Below, piece after piece: positions 31,818-64,000 of a stretch of 64,000 nucleotides of DNA (the first letter of the stretch is position 1; every line of letters starts with the position of its first letter). The stretch comes from an uncultured Marinicella sp. GTDB lineage: Bacteria > Pseudomonadota > Gammaproteobacteria > Xanthomonadales > Marinicellaceae. Made by a program: the position numbers and the translations under genes. The stretch covers positions 62,001 to 126,000 of the forward strand of contig CANNAM010000001.1 in the NCBI GenBank assembly GCA_947502595.1, in the 5' to 3' direction. The notes under the pieces were generated by a model, which saw nothing but the letters and a program-made list of their open reading frames with translations, was not told the DNA's origin and did no database searches.

Positions 31818-33845
31818 ATGCAGAAAACTAAAGCTTTAAGTGGTTGGCGCATTGGACCATGGTGTTATTTACCAGAAACAGGTGGCTTGAAAAGTGGCCG
31901 TGAAGAAGTCAGGCTGTCCACCCAATTAAACCAGGTGCTTTTATTGCTGATTCAAAACGCGCCTGAGGTGATTACTCGACAACAATTTATGGATTCAGTG
32001 TGGGCCGATAAATTTGTTAATGAAGGGGCTTTGTCAAGAACCATCGCAGAGCTCAGAAAACTGCTGGGTGATTCAGCAAGTCAAGCAAAGTACATCAAGA
32101 CCATTCCTAAAAAAGGTTATCAGTGGGTGCATGTCGTTGAACCAATTAAGGCCAGAAGTTATCGCCGCTTAAAGTTTATGTTGTTGGCTATGATGGTATC
32201 TGTGTTGGTTGTTATTCCAGTTTGGATCAGCCGTCAAAACAGCACGCTGGATACATTAAAAACTGCAGTGGCCAAAGCCAGTAGAGTGACAGCACAACCG
32301 GGGATGGAAAAACAAAGTCTGCTGAGCGCTGACGGTCATTGGCTGACTTATGTAAAGGACACCATTAACAGCAGTCAAATATTCGTTGAGTCATTGGCAG
32401 ATGCCAACTTACATGCTGTCATTGACCTACCTGGATATCGATTGTCATCGCCGGTGTTTATAGCAGCACAAAATTTGTTGTTGTTCACTGCGCAAGATAA
32501 AACCGATTGTTATTTAAAAAGCCATGTTTTGAACAGCCAAGTGTTCAAAGATTTAAGTCCTTGTTATTTCAACCATGAGTCGCGGACATTAAGTTTTGAT
32601 TCAAAATCAAACAGCGTATTTTTTGCCGCCCAAAATAATCAACAGCAGGTGGTTATTCAGCAATTGAGTTTGACCAATGGCAAGGTAACTGCATTAACCA
32701 ACCCTGGATCGGTAAATCATTTGGATTGGTCGCCGCAAATCAGTCCTGATCACCAATGGCTGAGTTATTCGCGGGGCAATAATTCAGTCAGAAATATATG
32801 GTTGAAAAATTTACAAACAGGTATTGAGCAGCCCATAACTGATGGTGAGCATTATTCGGTCAGCCATGCCTGGTACGACCATGAACACATAGTTTTTGAT
32901 TCTGACTTAAGTGGCAGTCGACAGTTGTGGTTATTGAATATCCATGCAACTGAACCACAGCTACTCGGTGCATATGGTGCCCAACATCCTTCATTTGATC
33001 ATGACAAACGCATCATGGCTTTTCAGGAAGTCAGCTATGAGGCCAATATATGGCTGTTTGATGTTGTCAGTAACGAGTACAAGCGAGTTGTGCATTCAAC
33101 TAAATATGATAACTACCCTGCATTTGCAGCCGATGGCCAGCGGTTTTTGTTTTCCAGTAATCGCCAAGATTTAAGTTCAATTTGGTTGTACGACATGGCT
33201 ATTGCAAAGGAGCAATTGTTGATTTCAATACCTGGGGTCAAGTTGACCAGACCCACTTGGCATCGTGATGGTCGCCATGTGTTAATTACCAGTAATGATG
33301 ACCAAGGTTACAGCACCTTGCTGTTAGATTTAAATACCATGCAAACTGAAGAACTGTTGTTTGGGTATGGCCATTTAGGCACTGTTGAACATGCTGGAAG
33401 TTATTTTGCCTTGGCCAAATCCGACCAGCTGCAACATAAAGTATTACACATGAAGCAGCAGCAGGTTGATATACTTCCGATTGATGCTGTAAGTAGGTTC
33501 ATGCTGCTTGATGACGGTCGATTGGTGTTCACAAAAACACATAAAGATGGGTTGTTTTTGTATGATTTAAACACCCAGCAAGAGCAGTTGTTAACCCCCG
33601 AATTGAAGCAAGCAGCCTTGAATCGCTGGACCGCAGTGAACCAGTCGGTGTATTTTGATCGTGGTGGCAAAGATGCAGGTGTTTGGCGTTTAGCTGTGGG
33701 TACTGGGCAGCTGAGTTTTGTCAGCAGTCATCGGCCGCTGTCAGTTGGCACTTCATTGAGTGTCAATGCCAGTGAAACACAGCTGTTGATAACCCAAACC
33801 GATCGAGCCGAATCGGACATCTTAAAAACACAGATAGGTGAATGA
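31818..33845 (+). CDS. CadC-like winged-helix regulator with TM segment and C-terminal TolB/WD40-like beta-propeller
   Basis: N-terminal wHTH (LNQVLLLLIQNAPEVITRQQFMDSVW...LSRTIAELRKLLGD...YIKTIPKKGYQW), TM (FMLLAMMVSVLVVIPVWI), then propeller repeats. Confidence 0.87.
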   Translation: MQKTKALSGWRIGPWCYLPETGGLKSGREEVRLSTQLNQVLLLLIQNAPEVITRQQFMDSVWADKFVNEGALSRTIAELRKLLGDSASQAKYIKTIPKKGYQWVHVVEPIKARSYRRLKFMLLAMMVSVLVVIPVWISRQNSTLDTLKTAVAKASRVTAQPGMEKQSLLSADGHWLTYVKDTINSSQIFVESLADANLHAVIDLPGYRLSSPVFIAAQNLLLFTAQDKTDCYLKSHVLNSQVFKDLSPCYFNHESRTLSFDSKSNSVFFAAQNNQQQVVIQQLSLTNGKVTALTNPGSVNHLDWSPQISPDHQWLSYSRGNNSVRNIWLKNLQTGIEQPITDGEHYSVSHAWYDHEHIVFDSDLSGSRQLWLLNIHATEPQLLGAYGAQHPSFDHDKRIMAFQEVSYEANIWLFDVVSNEYKRVVHSTKYDNYPAFAADGQRFLFSSNRQDLSSIWLYDMAIAKEQLLISIPGVKLTRPTWHRDGRHVLITSNDDQGYSTLLLDLNTMQTEELLFGYGHLGTVEHAGSYFALAKSDQLQHKVLHMKQQQVDILPIDAVSRFMLLDDGRLVFTKTHKDGLFLYDLNTQQEQLLTPELKQAALNRWTAVNQSVYFDRGGKDAGVWRLAVGTGQLSFVSSHRPLSVGTSLSVNASETQLLITQTDRAESDILKTQIGE

Positions 33846-56374: not shown

Positions 56375-58225
56375 TTAACCTTCAAAACCATGCTTAAATA
56401 TGATGTCGTTGTCGTAGGTTTCATCGGCGCCGGCATCATAGATGGCTGCAGGATTGTTGTCTTGATTGATAACAGTTGGGTCGTCCCAACCACGAAACTC
56501 CATATCGATGTCTTTGCTTCCGGCAGTGTTAATGCACATATCAACGGCTGGTGACAGCGATGCGTTAAGGTGATAATCACCATTGGTCCTGTCTTTAAAT
56601 TCAGGATCTCCGACAAACAATGAAAAACCATCAATTGAATTAATGTCGTGGGCTAAAATACACTCGAATTCGGTGGTGCCGGTATTGGCATTTAAAACAG
56701 CGCCTGAACTGCTGTCGTGAACGATTGATCTTTTTACAGTTAAGTGACTGTTCAAAAGACTAGAAACACCAAACACCGATTCAGTGGCGTGGTTATCGGC
56801 AAAAGTACTGTGAAGAACCAGGAGCTCAGCGCCACCAGCAGCGCGAACCACATATTTATCTTGATAAGTTAGGCCATCATTGCCATTGTGGTTAAAGACA
56901 CTGCCATCAATGATTAAAGCAGCTGATTCGCCAACTGCAGAGACGGCTGTGCCAAAATCGGCGCGGTTATTTTCTAAATAGGACTTGTTAAGCACAACAA
57001 TACTGTTGTCATTATAAATTGCGCCACCTTGTCCATTCGAAGCACTTGCTGAGTTAGACTCAAATAAATTACATTTATCATCAATATGACTGTTCCAACA
57101 GTTTTTAGCAAACCTCTGTATGTATAATTGCGCACCCTCATGAACACTGATGGCTCCACCATGAAATGCCGAATTATTATCAATCCAAACCTGCGACATC
57201 TCTACCAATGTTGTCGCGCCCTTGATAAGTATGGCGCCGCCATTACCTTGGTCAGATAAATCAGAGTCACCTCGGTTACCATTGAATCTAACCGGGCGTA
57301 TGTTATCCCCCAAACAATTACTGCCTTCACAAACCTTTCGGCCAATTAAATTGATGCGTGCACCATTATTGGCGTAAAGCCCACCCCCGCCATCTTTAGC
57401 TAAGTTGCCTACCATGCCTGCTGAATACATTGAAAATGTACAACCACCACTGATAAATGCACCACCACCTTTACCATTACTGGCGGTGACCTGATTAAAT
57501 ATTAAGCCACTGTCAGAAGCCATTGTTATGGATGCATCACTGCCTGAACAATAAATACCACCGCCGACTAGACTGGCTGTATTGGATGAAATAGTGGTTT
57601 CAGTCATGATTATATCGGTGTTTGTTACACCGTTATTTAAACCCAAAATGGCCAGCCCAGATCCTGAATTATTACTGATTGTGACATTTTCTAAAGCCAC
57701 TTGGGCATCGGCATTAAATGCGGTTAAGCCGGCACCTAATTGTGTGCTGGTGGCTGTGCCATTTTTTAAAGCCATGTTTTTTAAACTGATGGTATTTCTT
57801 AATACCTCTCCAGCAATCCTTAAGGCAGGTAATGCAGCGTTGCTTCCATCAACTTGCACTTGAGTGGTGTCTGGCCCAAAAGGCAAACCAGCATCAAAAC
57901 AATCATCGTAACCACCGATTAAAGAGACATTGATTTCATCGATAATTAGATTTTCGTTGTAGGTTTTATTGGTGGCGATTCGAATCTCACCGCTACCAGC
58001 GAAAGGAATGCTGTTGATGGCGTCTTGAATGTTGCTGAAATGACAACCGATGGAATCGGCACCAACCGTTATAAAACTACCGGAGGCCTGTTTCGTGAAT
58101 TCTTTAAAAGACTTCAATAGCTCAATATCCTGCTGTACTTGTGTGGTGAAATTTTTATCCTGATTACCGGCAAACAGCCAAGACAGGTGTGTGATTAAAA
58201 AAACCAATGTAATTATTCTGAACAT
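56375..58225 (-). CDS. secreted parallel beta-helix protein, C-terminus DIIFKHGFEG
   Basis: Signal peptide MFRIITLVFLITHLSWLFAG; many N/G-rich coils (NNSGSGLAIL, SNTASLVGGGIYC); tag at 56375..56407. Confidence 0.85.
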   Translation of the reverse strand: MFRIITLVFLITHLSWLFAGNQDKNFTTQVQQDIELLKSFKEFTKQASGSFITVGADSIGCHFSNIQDAINSIPFAGSGEIRIATNKTYNENLIIDEINVSLIGGYDDCFDAGLPFGPDTTQVQVDGSNAALPALRIAGEVLRNTISLKNMALKNGTATSTQLGAGLTAFNADAQVALENVTISNNSGSGLAILGLNNGVTNTDIIMTETTISSNTASLVGGGIYCSGSDASITMASDSGLIFNQVTASNGKGGGAFISGGCTFSMYSAGMVGNLAKDGGGGLYANNGARINLIGRKVCEGSNCLGDNIRPVRFNGNRGDSDLSDQGNGGAILIKGATTLVEMSQVWIDNNSAFHGGAISVHEGAQLYIQRFAKNCWNSHIDDKCNLFESNSASASNGQGGAIYNDNSIVVLNKSYLENNRADFGTAVSAVGESAALIIDGSVFNHNGNDGLTYQDKYVVRAAGGAELLVLHSTFADNHATESVFGVSSLLNSHLTVKRSIVHDSSSGAVLNANTGTTEFECILAHDINSIDGFSLFVGDPEFKDRTNGDYHLNASLSPAVDMCINTAGSKDIDMEFRGWDDPTVINQDNNPAAIYDAGADETYDNDIIFKHGFEG

Positions 58226-58285
58226 ACTTTACTCCTTGAAACTCAATTTGATTGACTGTTATCGTAGGATTTAAAGGGGTTTAAA

Positions 58286-58324
58286 ACATGGGGATGAGAT
58301 AATGATTATGTATGGATTATGTGT
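58286..58324 (-). promoter_or_regulatory. candidate operator of 11-bp direct repeats (copy 1), upstream of 56375..58225
   Basis: Gene-sense ATAATCCATAC-ATAATCATTAT-CTCATCCCCAT; near-copy of 63349..63387; 61 bp from the start codon. Confidence 0.6.
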
Positions 58325-58552
58325 GTTAGAGTAATACAGCTGTATCTGCAGGACTGCCCTGAGAGACCCTGATATTGGTGCACCTGCCTTGCCCCGCATC
58401 AGAGTTCGACCCAAGCGGTTAACTCAGTGGCAAAATATGATTCGCTGTCACATCCCAACTTATTTGGCACCCGCAAGGGGTGAAGCTGCGGGCAAGCCTC
58501 GCAGCGACAGAAACAGTTCTTCGACTTTAAGGAGTTAAACTAATCCGAATAT

Positions 58553-60754
58553 TTACTCAAAATCATCAGTAAATATCAAATCAATATAGTTCGCTTGCCA
58601 ATGCTGTAATAAGGCTCTGAAGGCTGCGGCTTTAATCACCGATGGCAAGGCACCGGATTGGTCTAAATCATTGACTCCATGGCAGCCACCACAGGCCCTG
58701 ATTTCACCGGGTTGAAAGGTAATCCAATAACGCTCACGCACCACCGGTGTACCCGACGGATCTAAAGATTGCCAGGCCATGGCCCTTCGCGCTGGTACAA
58801 AAGCGGCTACAGAACCATCCGGATAGATTTCAGTGCTGCCAGCTGGTGCGCTGACTGAAGGTGGGTTGTTGGCAATGGCCTGCGTGTTATGCAAGTATTG
58901 GGCAATCACCCTTTGCCCGGCATCAGGTGAATTGATACCACCTGAACCGCGTACCTGATCACCTTGTAAGAATTGCATATGCGCAATGTCATATAACTTT
59001 CCGGCATTGCCAATGGTCTGATGAGACGAACTGGCCACTTTCAGATTATAGGGTTGTTGTAAGTCAGCAGCATCTCGGGTGGTCACGTCGCGCATCACCA
59101 CCACGGCTAAGTTTTGTGCCCTTAAGTAGGCTTTGAACACACTGGCATCGACATTCTCTTCTGCGAAAACCTGTGCCTCAGGTGATTGTATGACACTGCC
59201 GGTCATGGGTGGTGGTGTTCTGGCCACCACTTCAACAGGCTGAAGTTCCCACAAAGGGCCGTTGTAAGACACCAAAACATCCGGGTCATAATAGGAAACA
59301 GTGGCAGGGCTTAAATTGTTGATGGAAGCACTGGGAACATAGTCACCGGCACCATTTTCACTGTATGTTTTGATGGTATAAGCATACCTTGGCAGCGGGT
59401 TGGCTCGGGTGCCTTCATTTAAATTGCCTCGGGTTTCATAAGTATGAGATGCCAGCAGTGTGCCATTGGTTAACATCACTGGATCCCGCGAGAAGCCGAT
59501 GTGCTCGGCAGGTGGTGAGTCGCTGGTGTCGCGGGTGGATTCATGGGTGATGTTTTCTACCACAACCAAATCCGGTCGATCACCATCAGCCAAGTTAAAG
59601 GCAATGATTTGGCCACCATTATGGGTGGCAAACTCAGGCGCCTCGATGGCCACAAAACGACCGTCTTGATTCGGGTCCTCATGCAGCATAAAAGCATTTA
59701 GTATGGAATTGGTGTTGGGTCGATTGATACCAGGAATAAATTCATGCAAATCATTGTCATCATTGATGCTGCGATTGAAATAGCTGTGTAGTTCATGTCT
59801 GCCCACATGATTTAACGTCTCTTCTTCGGTGCCATCTTGGTTGATTTCCCAAGGAAAAAAATGGTTGATGGTGTGACCCTCTAAGTTGGTCCCGGCCAAT
59901 AATCCAGATTCTTCTGCTCGCGGTTCAGGAAACACCTCTAACACACTGTCCACCCTTGGGGCATTGGCATCAGTGGGTTCAACCAAATAATTAAAAGCTT
60001 CAATATTATTAACCGGTGAGGCTTGTTGGTCTCTTTGTAAATGGTCCCAGCGGGTAAAAACCAAGCGTCCGGCACTGTCAATCAAGGGCGAAAATGAACC
60101 CGATGGTGAGTGTTGTAATAAGGTCACTTGTCCTGTTGCTCGGTTTAATTTCCACAAGCCGGTATTGGTCGCTGTTGATTCATATTCATCTTTTTGTGGG
60201 TAGTTAAAACGGTTCTTGGTTCTGGGCATATCGGTGGTAAAAATGATGCTGTCATCTGAACCATAAATGGCTGATATATTGTTGTAGTTGGCTGGTTGAT
60301 TGGCCAGATGCGTAATCACCGCTGTTTGTCCCTGGCCTAGGCCACTGATTTCATAGATTTGCCAGAAATAATTCCGCTCACCAAACTGCTCTTCAGGTGC
60401 ACCAATGACCATACTGAACAGGGCTTTGCTGGCGCTCCAATGCACCGCAGGGTCGCGCACTGCAATGGCATCAGCGCCTTGAAAACCGGTGCTGCCAAAA
60501 CCAGCTTCTCGGGTTAAGTTCCTTAAAGTCCCATCAGGGTAACGAATGTACAAATCACCACCACGGCCGCTGACACTGATTTCACCGGAATGATTAGCAA
60601 AGGTCGAGCCAATGGTGGCAAAATCCGCCGCAATAGGGAACTGGGTGACAAATAGAATTGGGTTATTTAATGGGGTGCCTGCCAGAGTTAAACCGAACAC
60701 TGAAATGAGTAAGGAAACCACAATATACTTTTTGAACATATTCACTCTCTTCAT
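58553..60754 (-). CDS. secreted PD40/hydrazine-synthase-alpha-like protein with one CxxCH heme motif, C-terminus DLIFTDDFE
   Basis: Signal peptide MFKKYIVVSLLISVFGLTLAG; propeller-like N-terminal half; EIRACGGCHGVND near C-terminus; tag at 58553..58582. Confidence 0.78.
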   Translation of the reverse strand: MKRVNMFKKYIVVSLLISVFGLTLAGTPLNNPILFVTQFPIAADFATIGSTFANHSGEISVSGRGGDLYIRYPDGTLRNLTREAGFGSTGFQGADAIAVRDPAVHWSASKALFSMVIGAPEEQFGERNYFWQIYEISGLGQGQTAVITHLANQPANYNNISAIYGSDDSIIFTTDMPRTKNRFNYPQKDEYESTATNTGLWKLNRATGQVTLLQHSPSGSFSPLIDSAGRLVFTRWDHLQRDQQASPVNNIEAFNYLVEPTDANAPRVDSVLEVFPEPRAEESGLLAGTNLEGHTINHFFPWEINQDGTEEETLNHVGRHELHSYFNRSINDDNDLHEFIPGINRPNTNSILNAFMLHEDPNQDGRFVAIEAPEFATHNGGQIIAFNLADGDRPDLVVVENITHESTRDTSDSPPAEHIGFSRDPVMLTNGTLLASHTYETRGNLNEGTRANPLPRYAYTIKTYSENGAGDYVPSASINNLSPATVSYYDPDVLVSYNGPLWELQPVEVVARTPPPMTGSVIQSPEAQVFAEENVDASVFKAYLRAQNLAVVVMRDVTTRDAADLQQPYNLKVASSSHQTIGNAGKLYDIAHMQFLQGDQVRGSGGINSPDAGQRVIAQYLHNTQAIANNPPSVSAPAGSTEIYPDGSVAAFVPARRAMAWQSLDPSGTPVVRERYWITFQPGEIRACGGCHGVNDLDQSGALPSVIKAAAFRALLQHWQANYIDLIFTDDFE

Positions 60755-60835
60755 TAAATTAAAATAGACTAATAACCAACATACTTTTAATCGGCTTACA
60801 AAACATCAAAAGACATTTGTTGTTATAGCAATTGT

Positions 60836-62113
60836 TCACTCAAAACCGTGTTTAAAAATCACATCGATCGCTACTGAACTTTCATAAGCACCCATATCAA
60901 CCACTTCTTGATGTATTCTCATTTCACCATCTATATCAGTCACAATATAGTCAGGTACAGCTGAATTAAGTCCTGAATTGAGCGCCGGCGATAGAGACTG
61001 CAATCGTAGGTTTGTACCACTGACAAATAACGGGTCTTGTTCAATGTCATTGGTGCCGGCAGTATAATTATTGCTGGCATTGCCAAAAACTAAATTAAAA
61101 TCATTGTTAACTGTGGCGTCAAAATCATTGAGGTTTATCCCGGACTGGCTGTTAAAGGCGATAATGTTATTAAAAAATGTGGCATTACTGGTGGCGCCTA
61201 AATCATCTCTGCCACCGTATGAAATACCTATCTTATTAAAAGCCAAGGTATTGTTAATTACCTCAAAATTAGCATGCCCGAAACCACTCGAGTTGTTAGA
61301 TAAAGCAATGCCAGCTGGCCTACCGGCAATATTGGACTGGCCGGATATGACATTATTAATCGCTCTGGCTGTTAGAAAGCCACCGGTTCCATTTAAGCGA
61401 AGACTGATGCCGGAATTAAAATTTTGCCCTGAAATTTCATTATCGATAACATCAACAAAAAAACTGCTGTGAGAAGATCCATAAACACTTATCGCTGCTT
61501 CCTGACCTGTGTTTGAAGCGGTTATGCGATTGTTGGCGATGACAGCCAGGTTACCCGTTCCCAAAAAACTGCCTATAGATATTCCTGAAACAACTTCATC
61601 CTCGATATTAATGTTGTTTCCTTCAACTAATACTATTACCGGCCCATAAGGTGGCGATGCATTTCCTGATGAAACTTCTATGGCAGGCCTGAAAGATGAA
61701 TCTTCAACAACATTGTTGCGAAAAGTAACATCAAATGTTCCTTGTCCACCTTGAACAGCCCTGAAATTGCCAGTTTCTAAAGTCAACCCTTCAATAACCA
61801 CTGTTATGTCTTCATCCGATCCAGAAAAATTCAGCGAGGTAAAGCTGGGAAACACCGGATTAAATCCATCGGCAGCCCTTAAAGTAAAACTTTTTGCCGG
61901 ACTGACAGCAATGTTTGACTGACTCGGCAGAATATGGCCTCTCACTTCAATAGTTTCACCATCGGCTACACCATTGATACAGGACTCTAAATCATTGATA
62001 ATATTACAAGGTGCTGGGCCGCTAGGCCAGTTTACAAGTGCCATCGAAGGCAAATTAACCAGCATCAGTAAAGTAAACATCAAGCTAAAATATTTTAAGT
62101 TTAATTTTTTCAT
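60836..62113 (-). CDS. secreted parallel beta-helix protein, C-terminus DVIFKHGFE
   Basis: Signal peptide MKKLNLKYFSLMFTLLMLVNLPSMA; right-handed beta-helix repeats (NNRITASNTGQEAAI...); ends GAYESSVAIDVIFKHGFE; tag at 60836..60865. Confidence 0.85.
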   Translation of the reverse strand: MKKLNLKYFSLMFTLLMLVNLPSMALVNWPSGPAPCNIINDLESCINGVADGETIEVRGHILPSQSNIAVSPAKSFTLRAADGFNPVFPSFTSLNFSGSDEDITVVIEGLTLETGNFRAVQGGQGTFDVTFRNNVVEDSSFRPAIEVSSGNASPPYGPVIVLVEGNNINIEDEVVSGISIGSFLGTGNLAVIANNRITASNTGQEAAISVYGSSHSSFFVDVIDNEISGQNFNSGISLRLNGTGGFLTARAINNVISGQSNIAGRPAGIALSNNSSGFGHANFEVINNTLAFNKIGISYGGRDDLGATSNATFFNNIIAFNSQSGINLNDFDATVNNDFNLVFGNASNNYTAGTNDIEQDPLFVSGTNLRLQSLSPALNSGLNSAVPDYIVTDIDGEMRIHQEVVDMGAYESSVAIDVIFKHGFE

Positions 62114-62231
62114 AACAATTTATCCTTCATTTTTAAGTAACCATCGGTGCTTTAGTCATTCGAAGACAGCGCTAAACATGCCATCATTAATACAGGCATC
62201 AAATGACACAAAACACCGAGGCTAGTTATTA

Positions 62232-63287
62232 TTAAGCCTTCACTTCTAAAATTAAATTAAACGGTGTTTCAGCGGCTTTTTCACAGTAACTGAAGCCGCC
62301 GGCTTTGATGGTTTCTGTTAACCTCGATAAGCCTGCTTGTGCACCCAAAGCCAAACCCACTTCTTGGTTCATGGAACATGGGACACATAATTGGGTTGAG
62401 AACGCATAGAAGGCACGACCAACCGGGTTGAGGTTGTCTTTAATGGAATCTTTAGCAAACGGCTCAACAATCATGCATGAACCATCGGACTTCAAAGCTT
62501 GCTTGGCATGGGCGCATGCACCCACCGGATCACCCATGTCATGTAAACAATCGAAGTATGTAATGAGATCAAAATTTTTATCGGTATAGTTTTTTGCGGT
62601 GGCCACTTTAAATTCGATGTTGTCTAAACCTGCTTCTTCAGCGCGTGCCTGCGCATAATCAATGGACTCTTGGTGGTAGTCGATGCCAATAAAATGTGAG
62701 TTAGGAAAGGCTTTCGCCATGATGAGTGTTGAAGCCGCATGGCCACAACCAATGTCAGCGACTTTGGCGCCTTGGGTCAGTTTCTCACTGACACCATCCA
62801 AAGCCGGAATCCAATTGTTAATCAGATTACCTGAATACGATGGACTGAAAAATTTCTCTGTACCACAAAAAAGGCAGGTGTGGTGATCGCCCCATGAAAC
62901 ACCTTCGCCAGTTTTAAAAGCTTCCAGCATTTTGGGTTCATCATGATATAAAGAAGCAATGACATAAAAAGCACCGGTCATAAAAACCGGACTGTTTGAA
63001 TCCCCAAATACCGCCACCTGTTCCGGCGTCATAAAGAATTGGTGTTTGTCACTGTCATATTCGACATAGCCTGAGGCTGCTTGCGCTGCCAACCACTCTT
63101 GTACATAACGTAACGCCGTGCCGGTTTTATCCGCCAATTCACTGGCACTTAAATGCCCAGATTCTCCTAAGGCTTTATACAGACCTAATTTATCACCAAG
63201 GGTGATTAAAGGGCCATTAGCCGCGGCACCCATTTCGACCACCACTTGTCCTAACAGCTGCTGAAGTTTTTCGTCTTTGATCGTCAT
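62232..63287 (-). CDS. class I SAM-dependent methyltransferase with N-terminal winged-helix domain
   Basis: N-term LYKALGESGHLSASELADKTGTALRYVQEWLAAQAASGYVEYD; VADIGCGHAASTLIMAKAFPNSHFIGIDYH. Confidence 0.9.
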   Translation of the reverse strand: MTIKDEKLQQLLGQVVVEMGAAANGPLITLGDKLGLYKALGESGHLSASELADKTGTALRYVQEWLAAQAASGYVEYDSDKHQFFMTPEQVAVFGDSNSPVFMTGAFYVIASLYHDEPKMLEAFKTGEGVSWGDHHTCLFCGTEKFFSPSYSGNLINNWIPALDGVSEKLTQGAKVADIGCGHAASTLIMAKAFPNSHFIGIDYHQESIDYAQARAEEAGLDNIEFKVATAKNYTDKNFDLITYFDCLHDMGDPVGACAHAKQALKSDGSCMIVEPFAKDSIKDNLNPVGRAFYAFSTQLCVPCSMNQEVGLALGAQAGLSRLTETIKAGGFSYCEKAAETPFNLILEVKA

Positions 63288-63348
63288 TATTTTCTCCCGT
63301 CATATTTGATTAATGTGGGAGAAATAATAGCTTTGGATCAATACTCAG

Positions 63349-63387
63349 ACATGAAGATGGTGTAATGATTAGGTAGGGATTAGCTGT
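63349..63387 (-). promoter_or_regulatory. candidate operator of 11-bp direct repeats (copy 2), upstream of the methyltransferase gene
   Basis: Gene-sense CTAATCCCTAC-CTAATCATTAC-ACCATCTTCAT; 62 bp from the start codon; similar to 58286..58324. Confidence 0.6.
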
Positions 63388-63584: not shown

Positions 63585-63657
63585 AAGGTGTAATGGTCAA
63601 GTTTTTCCGGACACATTTAATCCGTTTTTTTACTTGTATAACTTACTGAATTTTGAC

Positions 63658-64000
63658 CTAGAGAAACTTCTTTCTGAACGCATCATGCTTTTGTTTGGCT
63701 TGTTTCAGAGTTTTAATATAACGATCATCAGATTGAAGGAAGTTAAAGGCTGAATTGTGCGTGATGTGTGGGTAATTATAATACCCTGAAATAACCGCTT
63801 TTTCGAGCCACGCTAAACACTGATCCGGTTTTTTTAATAGACAATAAAAATGTGCATAGTAATACATATTCTCTGCATCAATGACATTGGAATCCACCAT
63901 TTTAGTAAGCGTCTCTAACCCCGTATCATAGTCTTCAGCCATAACCGCCAGGTAAATTTGGGCAATCAACCCCCAAATTCCATTTTGATCAATTTCAATG
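63658..64000 (-). CDS. C-terminal part of a TPR-type protein running off the window
   Basis: Frame stays open to the window edge (IEIDQNGIWGLIAQIYLAVMAEDYDTGLETL...YYYAHFYCLLKKPDQCLAWLEKAVISGYYNYPHI); resembles TPR C-termini of CadC-like regulators. Confidence 0.65.
   Translation of the reverse strand, partial: IEIDQNGIWGLIAQIYLAVMAEDYDTGLETLTKMVDSNVIDAENMYYYAHFYCLLKKPDQCLAWLEKAVISGYYNYPHITHNSAFNFLQSDDRYIKTLKQAKQKHDAFRKKFL

Follow-up and report, generated by a model that had tools for sequence, protein, structure and literature searches.

Two short elements lie upstream of two different genes in the window (the whole stretch of 64,000 nucleotides that was analysed), and they are very probably activator operators. 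Each would consist of three head-to-tail half-sites of 11 bp, read by the neighbouring regulators of the ToxR/CadC type called R1 and R2. The sequence itself shows the repeats, their spacing to the -10 box and their conservation, as well as a link to the regulator clade that is both physical and phylogenetic.

The original prediction placed a pair of 39-bp elements at 58286 and 63349, and both are found there, on the minus strand. The element is real, but its conserved core is shorter, at 34 bp; in the 39-bp pair 30 positions are identical between the copies, and the leading ACAnn of that version is not conserved. A near-equal distance from the two start codons was also claimed and holds, but with the figures listed below in place of 61 and 62 nt. 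The surroundings of the two copies are unrelated, as had been said, with the exception of the -10 box. The copies and their candidate -10 boxes are as follows.

58286..58319, minus strand: operator copy 1, reading TAATCCATACA, TAATCATTATC, TCATCCCCATGT, 60 nt before the beta-helix gene
58261..58266, minus strand: candidate -10 box TACGAT of copy 1, 19 bp after CATGT
63349..63382, minus strand: operator copy 2, reading TAATCCCTACC, TAATCATTACA, CCATCTTCATGT, 61 nt before the methyltransferase gene
63324..63329, minus strand: candidate -10 box TATTAT of copy 2, 19 bp after CATGT

The third repeat of copy 1 is degenerate, with CCCCATGT instead of CTTCATGT. Judged from the window alone, where two exact matches compare with 0.16 expected at up to three mismatches and two of 100 shuffles also gave two, the case for the element is modest. 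Its own genome (3.2 Mb) holds 17 matches at up to three mismatches, where the reversed control has 7; the exact ones are the two window copies only, and most of the others are inside ORFs. The short search pattern first proposed proved too unspecific for a genome-wide test. At three mismatches the short pattern TAATCnnTACnTAATCATTA gave mostly coding background in this genome, a looser 19-mer was dropped (37 matches against 30 in the control), and two extra candidates at three mismatches (C11:55425 and C20:22661) obtained no score with the full PWM. With a sequence model searched over the whole genome, copy 1 has E = 1.0e-8 and copy 2 E = 4.4e-10, and nothing else falls below E 0.01. A PWM built without the window copies scores them at 38.4 (copy 1) and 41, while no other place in the window goes above 11 and no score above 14.5 arose in 200 Markov copies. 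The regulon in this genome would comprise these two promoters only, and a search of this genome alone would not decide the matter. It is the comparative data that make the observation secure, and by that measure both elements are genuine. A weak partial copy of the 3' half of the operator (16 bp, 81%) was also seen at window positions 63587-63602, 228 bp upstream of copy 2 and near the end of the R1 gene.

When the short pattern was run at up to two mismatches on 60 relatives, it led to sites before genes with a longer common ending, AATCTTCATGT. In 33 family genomes the extended pattern TAATCnnTACnnAATCTTCATGT matched at many sites with 0-2 mismatches. Random occurrence inside coding regions, or a lack of promoter enrichment, had been named as grounds for giving up the element; with the full motif, none of the 23 distinct sites at up to two mismatches (one of them in Paraglaciecola) is inside an ORF, and most are 24-90 bp before one. 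At E < 2e-4 a model based on sequence alone detects 34 sites, spread over 11 of the 33 family genomes; a sharp gap follows, and noise begins at 0.0025. Among 369 genomes taken from the class as a control, it returned the own genome and a single marginal match (4.7e-4). A mobile or REP-like repeat was considered and rejected, as promoter-bound sites, constant spacing and unrelated flanks argue otherwise.

The architecture of the element was derived from a gap-free alignment of 28 sites; four 3-mismatch sites and the own copy 1 had been taken into it on account of their surroundings, with a slight bias of the matrix as a result. The consensus is nAATCnnTACA-TAATCAnTACA-TAATCTTCATGTTT, that is, three direct repeats of 11 bp. 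The predicted 11-bp step is borne out across the 28 aligned sites, where lag 11 dominates with 0.28 against at most 0.076 at other lags from 4 to 21. The direct repeats expected of a PhoB-type operator are likewise present, with a lag-11 identity of 0.56 against at most 0.38 at other lags from 4 to 15. A palindrome reading of TAATCATTA was abandoned since the AATC unit repeats in one orientation at 11-bp steps; no inverted repeat was found in the element. The repeat upstream of the search pattern is strongly conserved over the 28 sites (AA 93/100%, TA 79/100%), and so is a -10 box TAnnnT at 19 bp beyond CATGT (75% for the T, 89% for the A and 93% for the final T). Because both features are outside the search pattern, they are independent support. 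No sigma-70 -35/-10 pair was detected at either window site. With the -10 box at -12 to -7, the operator spans about -65 to -32, and across the 28 sites, taking the predicted start site, the PhoB-type layout of overlap with -35 and a constant distance to -10 is found. The operator would take the place of the -35 box.

The window holds the C-terminal part of R1; the remainder of R1, and R2, lie beyond it on the contig.

63658..64000, minus strand: C-terminal part of R1, which continues to contig position 127535 (65535 in window numbering) and is 625 aa long
contig 127667-129550: R2, tandem paralogue of R1, 627 aa, directly behind R1

It had been suggested that the partial TPR protein at 63658 could be the C-terminus of a CadC-like regulator. 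This is what the complete gene encodes: a winged helix in residues 1-97, a transmembrane helix at 117-140 and TPRs, together with a FlgO/TolB_N-like stretch. The N-terminal winged helix is of the OmpR/PhoB type (PF00486 at 62 bits against a cut-off of 26.2, residues 23-96) and matches CadC 5ju7 at E = 4e-13 and the PhoB-DNA structure 1gxp at E = 1e-10, with ToxR also among the closest solved structures. Hydropathy, the one measure used here, gives a single hydrophobic segment at 117-140 in R1 and likewise one in R2, in RB of the second module described below and in the Paraglaciecola orthologue. The C-terminal part of R1 would, given this topology, be periplasmic. It has FlgO/TolB_N-like and TPR matches, and there was no Response_reg match in Pfam. 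Scores of 68 and 87 bits with the CadC equivalog NF007540, far below its cut-off of 400, mark the regulators as CadC-like and not CadC. Another CadC-like protein of 675 aa, with a PF00486 N-terminus, is encoded in the window at 31818..33845 on the plus strand.

The original prediction also named an OmpR/PhoB-type winged-helix protein as the binder, and such a protein is a strong candidate, as 26 of the 34 strong sites are within 6 kb of a regulator from one PF00486 clade, that of R1 and R2. For 16 of the 34 the distance is within 1 kb, and chance would account for about 2-2.5% per site on a generous estimate. A first search with R1 found no relative, and the methyltransferase alignment was used instead. 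Of the 33 genomes, 11 have strong sites, 10 a full-length regulator match and 8 both (Fisher p = 4e-4; these tests ignore shared ancestry, and counts from related genomes are not independent events). Three genomes have strong sites but no full-length regulator match; in two of them, G019 and G025, a close winged helix is present all the same (59 and 68% identity). The third, G007, has the operator and no close regulator, its best winged-helix identity being below 40%, and G029 and G015 have the regulator and no strong site; these three assemblies are fragmented or incomplete. The first residues of the G025 regulator are probably an artefact, because the reading frame at the contig start (G025:C287; L237:2-46) gives SSAASDVYKRQ, which we take to be a mark of sequencing-adapter read-through. 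Motif-linked regulators have in common SDTSINNxIKSARKxLGDDG..VIKTIHSRGYQF or close variants in the recognition-helix region, whereas other paralogues deviate there. Independent evidence is offered by another order, in which Paraglaciecola sp. MB-3u-78 has R1 (67% identical), the operator and the methyltransferase (85%) together, while the methyltransferase orthologues of Flavobacteriia (69-73%) have neither regulator nor operator adjoining.

From these data we infer binding by R1 and R2, activation instead of repression, and sensing. In R1 and R2 the PhoB-type winged helix would lie in the cytoplasm and a large part with TPRs in the periplasm, joined by one transmembrane helix. A periplasmic signal would cause the membrane-anchored proteins to bind the repeats in tandem, the copy closest to -35 would contact RNA polymerase, and this contact would switch on the methyltransferase operon from copy 2 and the beta-helix gene from copy 1. 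That R1 and R2 bind the element but repress, or act both ways, is unlikely, even though in several relatives a divergently transcribed regulator gene starts 58-139 bp from the site, as in autoregulation; an operator in place of -35 at a constant distance from -10 is the layout of PhoB-type activation (PMC3348028) and resembles that of the SARPs (PMC10936776). It is more improbable still that another PhoB-family regulator, such as an orphan response regulator, binds the element and that R1 and R2 are near it incidentally. The genome does hold 20 PF00486 proteins, and 11-bp direct repeats would be compatible with any PhoB-type response regulator, but this reading must cope with the nearness of the R1/R2 clade to most strong sites, with the joint occurrence of operator and R1 in Paraglaciecola, and with a motif found almost nowhere else in the class although PF00486 proteins are widespread. 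A very small chance is left for AATCTTCATGT-N19-TAnnnT being the promoter of an alternative sigma factor and not a regulator site. The last repeat is indeed the most constant piece and stands at promoter spacing from the -10 box, but such a promoter gives no role to the two further upstream AATC units at 11-bp steps, the -10 box is an ordinary TAnnnT, and in a paralogous module the repeat unit changes along with the regulator. Binding and autoregulation by the methyltransferase, which has a winged-helix domain of its own (HTH_65) and whose gene often directly follows the operator, is hardly credible and was rejected, since the gene is lacking in G009, G019, G027 and G031, which do have operator and regulator, and the flavobacterial orthologues have no operator.

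Under activation by R1 and R2, the targets in the window would be the following.

56375..58225, minus strand: target 1, secreted beta-helix protein of 616 aa with a Chlam_PMP repeat and an N-terminal hydrophobic signal
62232..63287, minus strand: target 2, class I SAM-dependent methyltransferase with an Rv2258c-like winged-helix N-domain
60836..62113, minus strand: secreted choice-of-anchor Q protein, in a putative operon with the methyltransferase
58553..60754, minus strand: secreted protein with a hydrazine-synthase-alpha-type domain and one CxxCH, putative distal gene of the operon

Copy 2 probably drives an operon of the methyltransferase, choice-of-anchor Q and HZS-like genes, and copy 1 the beta-helix gene; the operon reading is based on strand and gaps and on the order of the genes in relatives. 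In G025 the choice-of-anchor Q orthologue comes directly after the methyltransferase with a gap of 27 bp, and a homologue of the HZS-like protein has an operator of its own. In G009, G030 and other genomes the operator is found with a homologue of the beta-helix protein. Across the family, the genes behind the sites encode methyltransferase, beta-helix, choice-of-anchor and HZS-alpha-domain proteins, fatty-acid hydroxylases, Kelch/FG-GAP proteins, a PQQ-type beta-propeller protein and a dirigent-like protein. They are mostly secreted, with exceptions that include a fatty-acid hydroxylase and the methyltransferase. Methyltransferase orthologues are 79-87% identical in five relatives; the gene occurs in 6 of the 11 operator genomes and, because it is missing from the other 5, it is not the defining partner of the operator. 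In G030 the gene (L130:5941-6990, G030:C258) has one in-frame TAA and the operator is intact. The identities in Flavobacteriia and Paraglaciecola suggest that the methyltransferase has been transferred horizontally between phyla.

A second module, B, is present in the same genome as the window's module A. Here (G000:C7:63689-67167) a paralogous regulator of some 640 aa comes first, then an operator in which AATCATCAT-like units make three steps of 11 bp, and lastly a secreted beta-helix/CSLREA-like protein. The same layout, with two tandem regulators, occurs in G010; the module B loci beside L245 (G000:C7) are L246, L239, L255, L256 and L257. The unit pattern of module B has 19 matches in 11 genomes, where the reversed control has none. 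Module A sites account for five of the 19, and nearly all the others precede genes for proteins with secretion signals. RB-type regulators adjoin module B sites in G000, G005, G010, G012 and G016. One more module-B-like site, with a degenerate third unit, lies 60 bp upstream of a gene of 480+ aa (G000:C6:51367-51397; L269:1501-1531, minus strand). Between modules A and B, repeat unit and recognition helix appear to change together. It is conceivable, and here our confidence falls a little short of even, that these are portable, diversifying cassettes in which a winged-helix TPR regulator anchored in the membrane, often as one of a tandem pair, is combined with an 11-bp operator of three repeats and with surface proteins such as secreted beta-helix proteins; helix and unit would change jointly (TAATCnnTACA/TTCATGT in A, AATCATCAT in B), and tandem regulators might share one operator.

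The closest known systems each match in part. The ToxR/CadC family of membrane-integrated one-component regulators has been defined (PMC5936718), and R1 and R2 resemble E. coli CadC and Vibrio cholerae ToxR in their N-terminal PhoB-type winged helix, single transmembrane helix, C-terminal periplasmic part and absence of a receiver domain. Unlike in these, the periplasmic part is FlgO/TolB_N-like with TPRs. The operators differ as well, since E. coli CadC has been described at two head-to-head AT-rich sites (PMC5430869) and ToxR at the site TNAAA-N5-TNAAA (PMC8517210), whereas three 11-bp tandem repeats overlap -35 here. As head-to-head sites are what is described for this best-studied relative (PMC5430869), the comparison with CadC counts against tandem binding. 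PhoB, on the other hand, activates through tandem head-to-tail winged helices on direct repeats over the -35 region (PMC3348028). R1 and R2 share with it a similar winged helix and a candidate direct-repeat operator over -35; they are unlike it as membrane-anchored one-component proteins without a receiver domain, and the operator has three repeats of an unrelated unit. SARPs such as AfsR, with an OmpR-type domain, act on 11-bp direct repeats (the afs box) that overlap -35 at a fixed distance from -10 (PMC10936776). The element shares these features, but its repeats end 19 bp and not 8 bp from the -10 box, the phylum is another one, and the bacterial transcriptional activation domain is absent from the Pfam matches of R1 and R2, which sets them apart from SARPs. 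In the open-access literature we found neither a described operator for this winged-helix/TPR type of regulator nor a description of CSLREA proteins under one. What emerges is a candidate regulator/operator pair that is new, belongs to the ToxR/CadC kind and has a PhoB-like operator architecture.

This bacterial family has an abundance of CadC-like membrane regulators of the winged-helix/TPR type. To our knowledge, few of them have had their operator or targets worked out, and in the present case operator, promoter layout and regulon are readable from sequence. The regulator-operator-methyltransferase unit of Paraglaciecola would make a small experimental system, and two paralogous regulator/operator pairs of differing specificity in one genome would allow a direct test of how DNA is read. 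As to what such regulators control in this family, it is apparently surface proteins.
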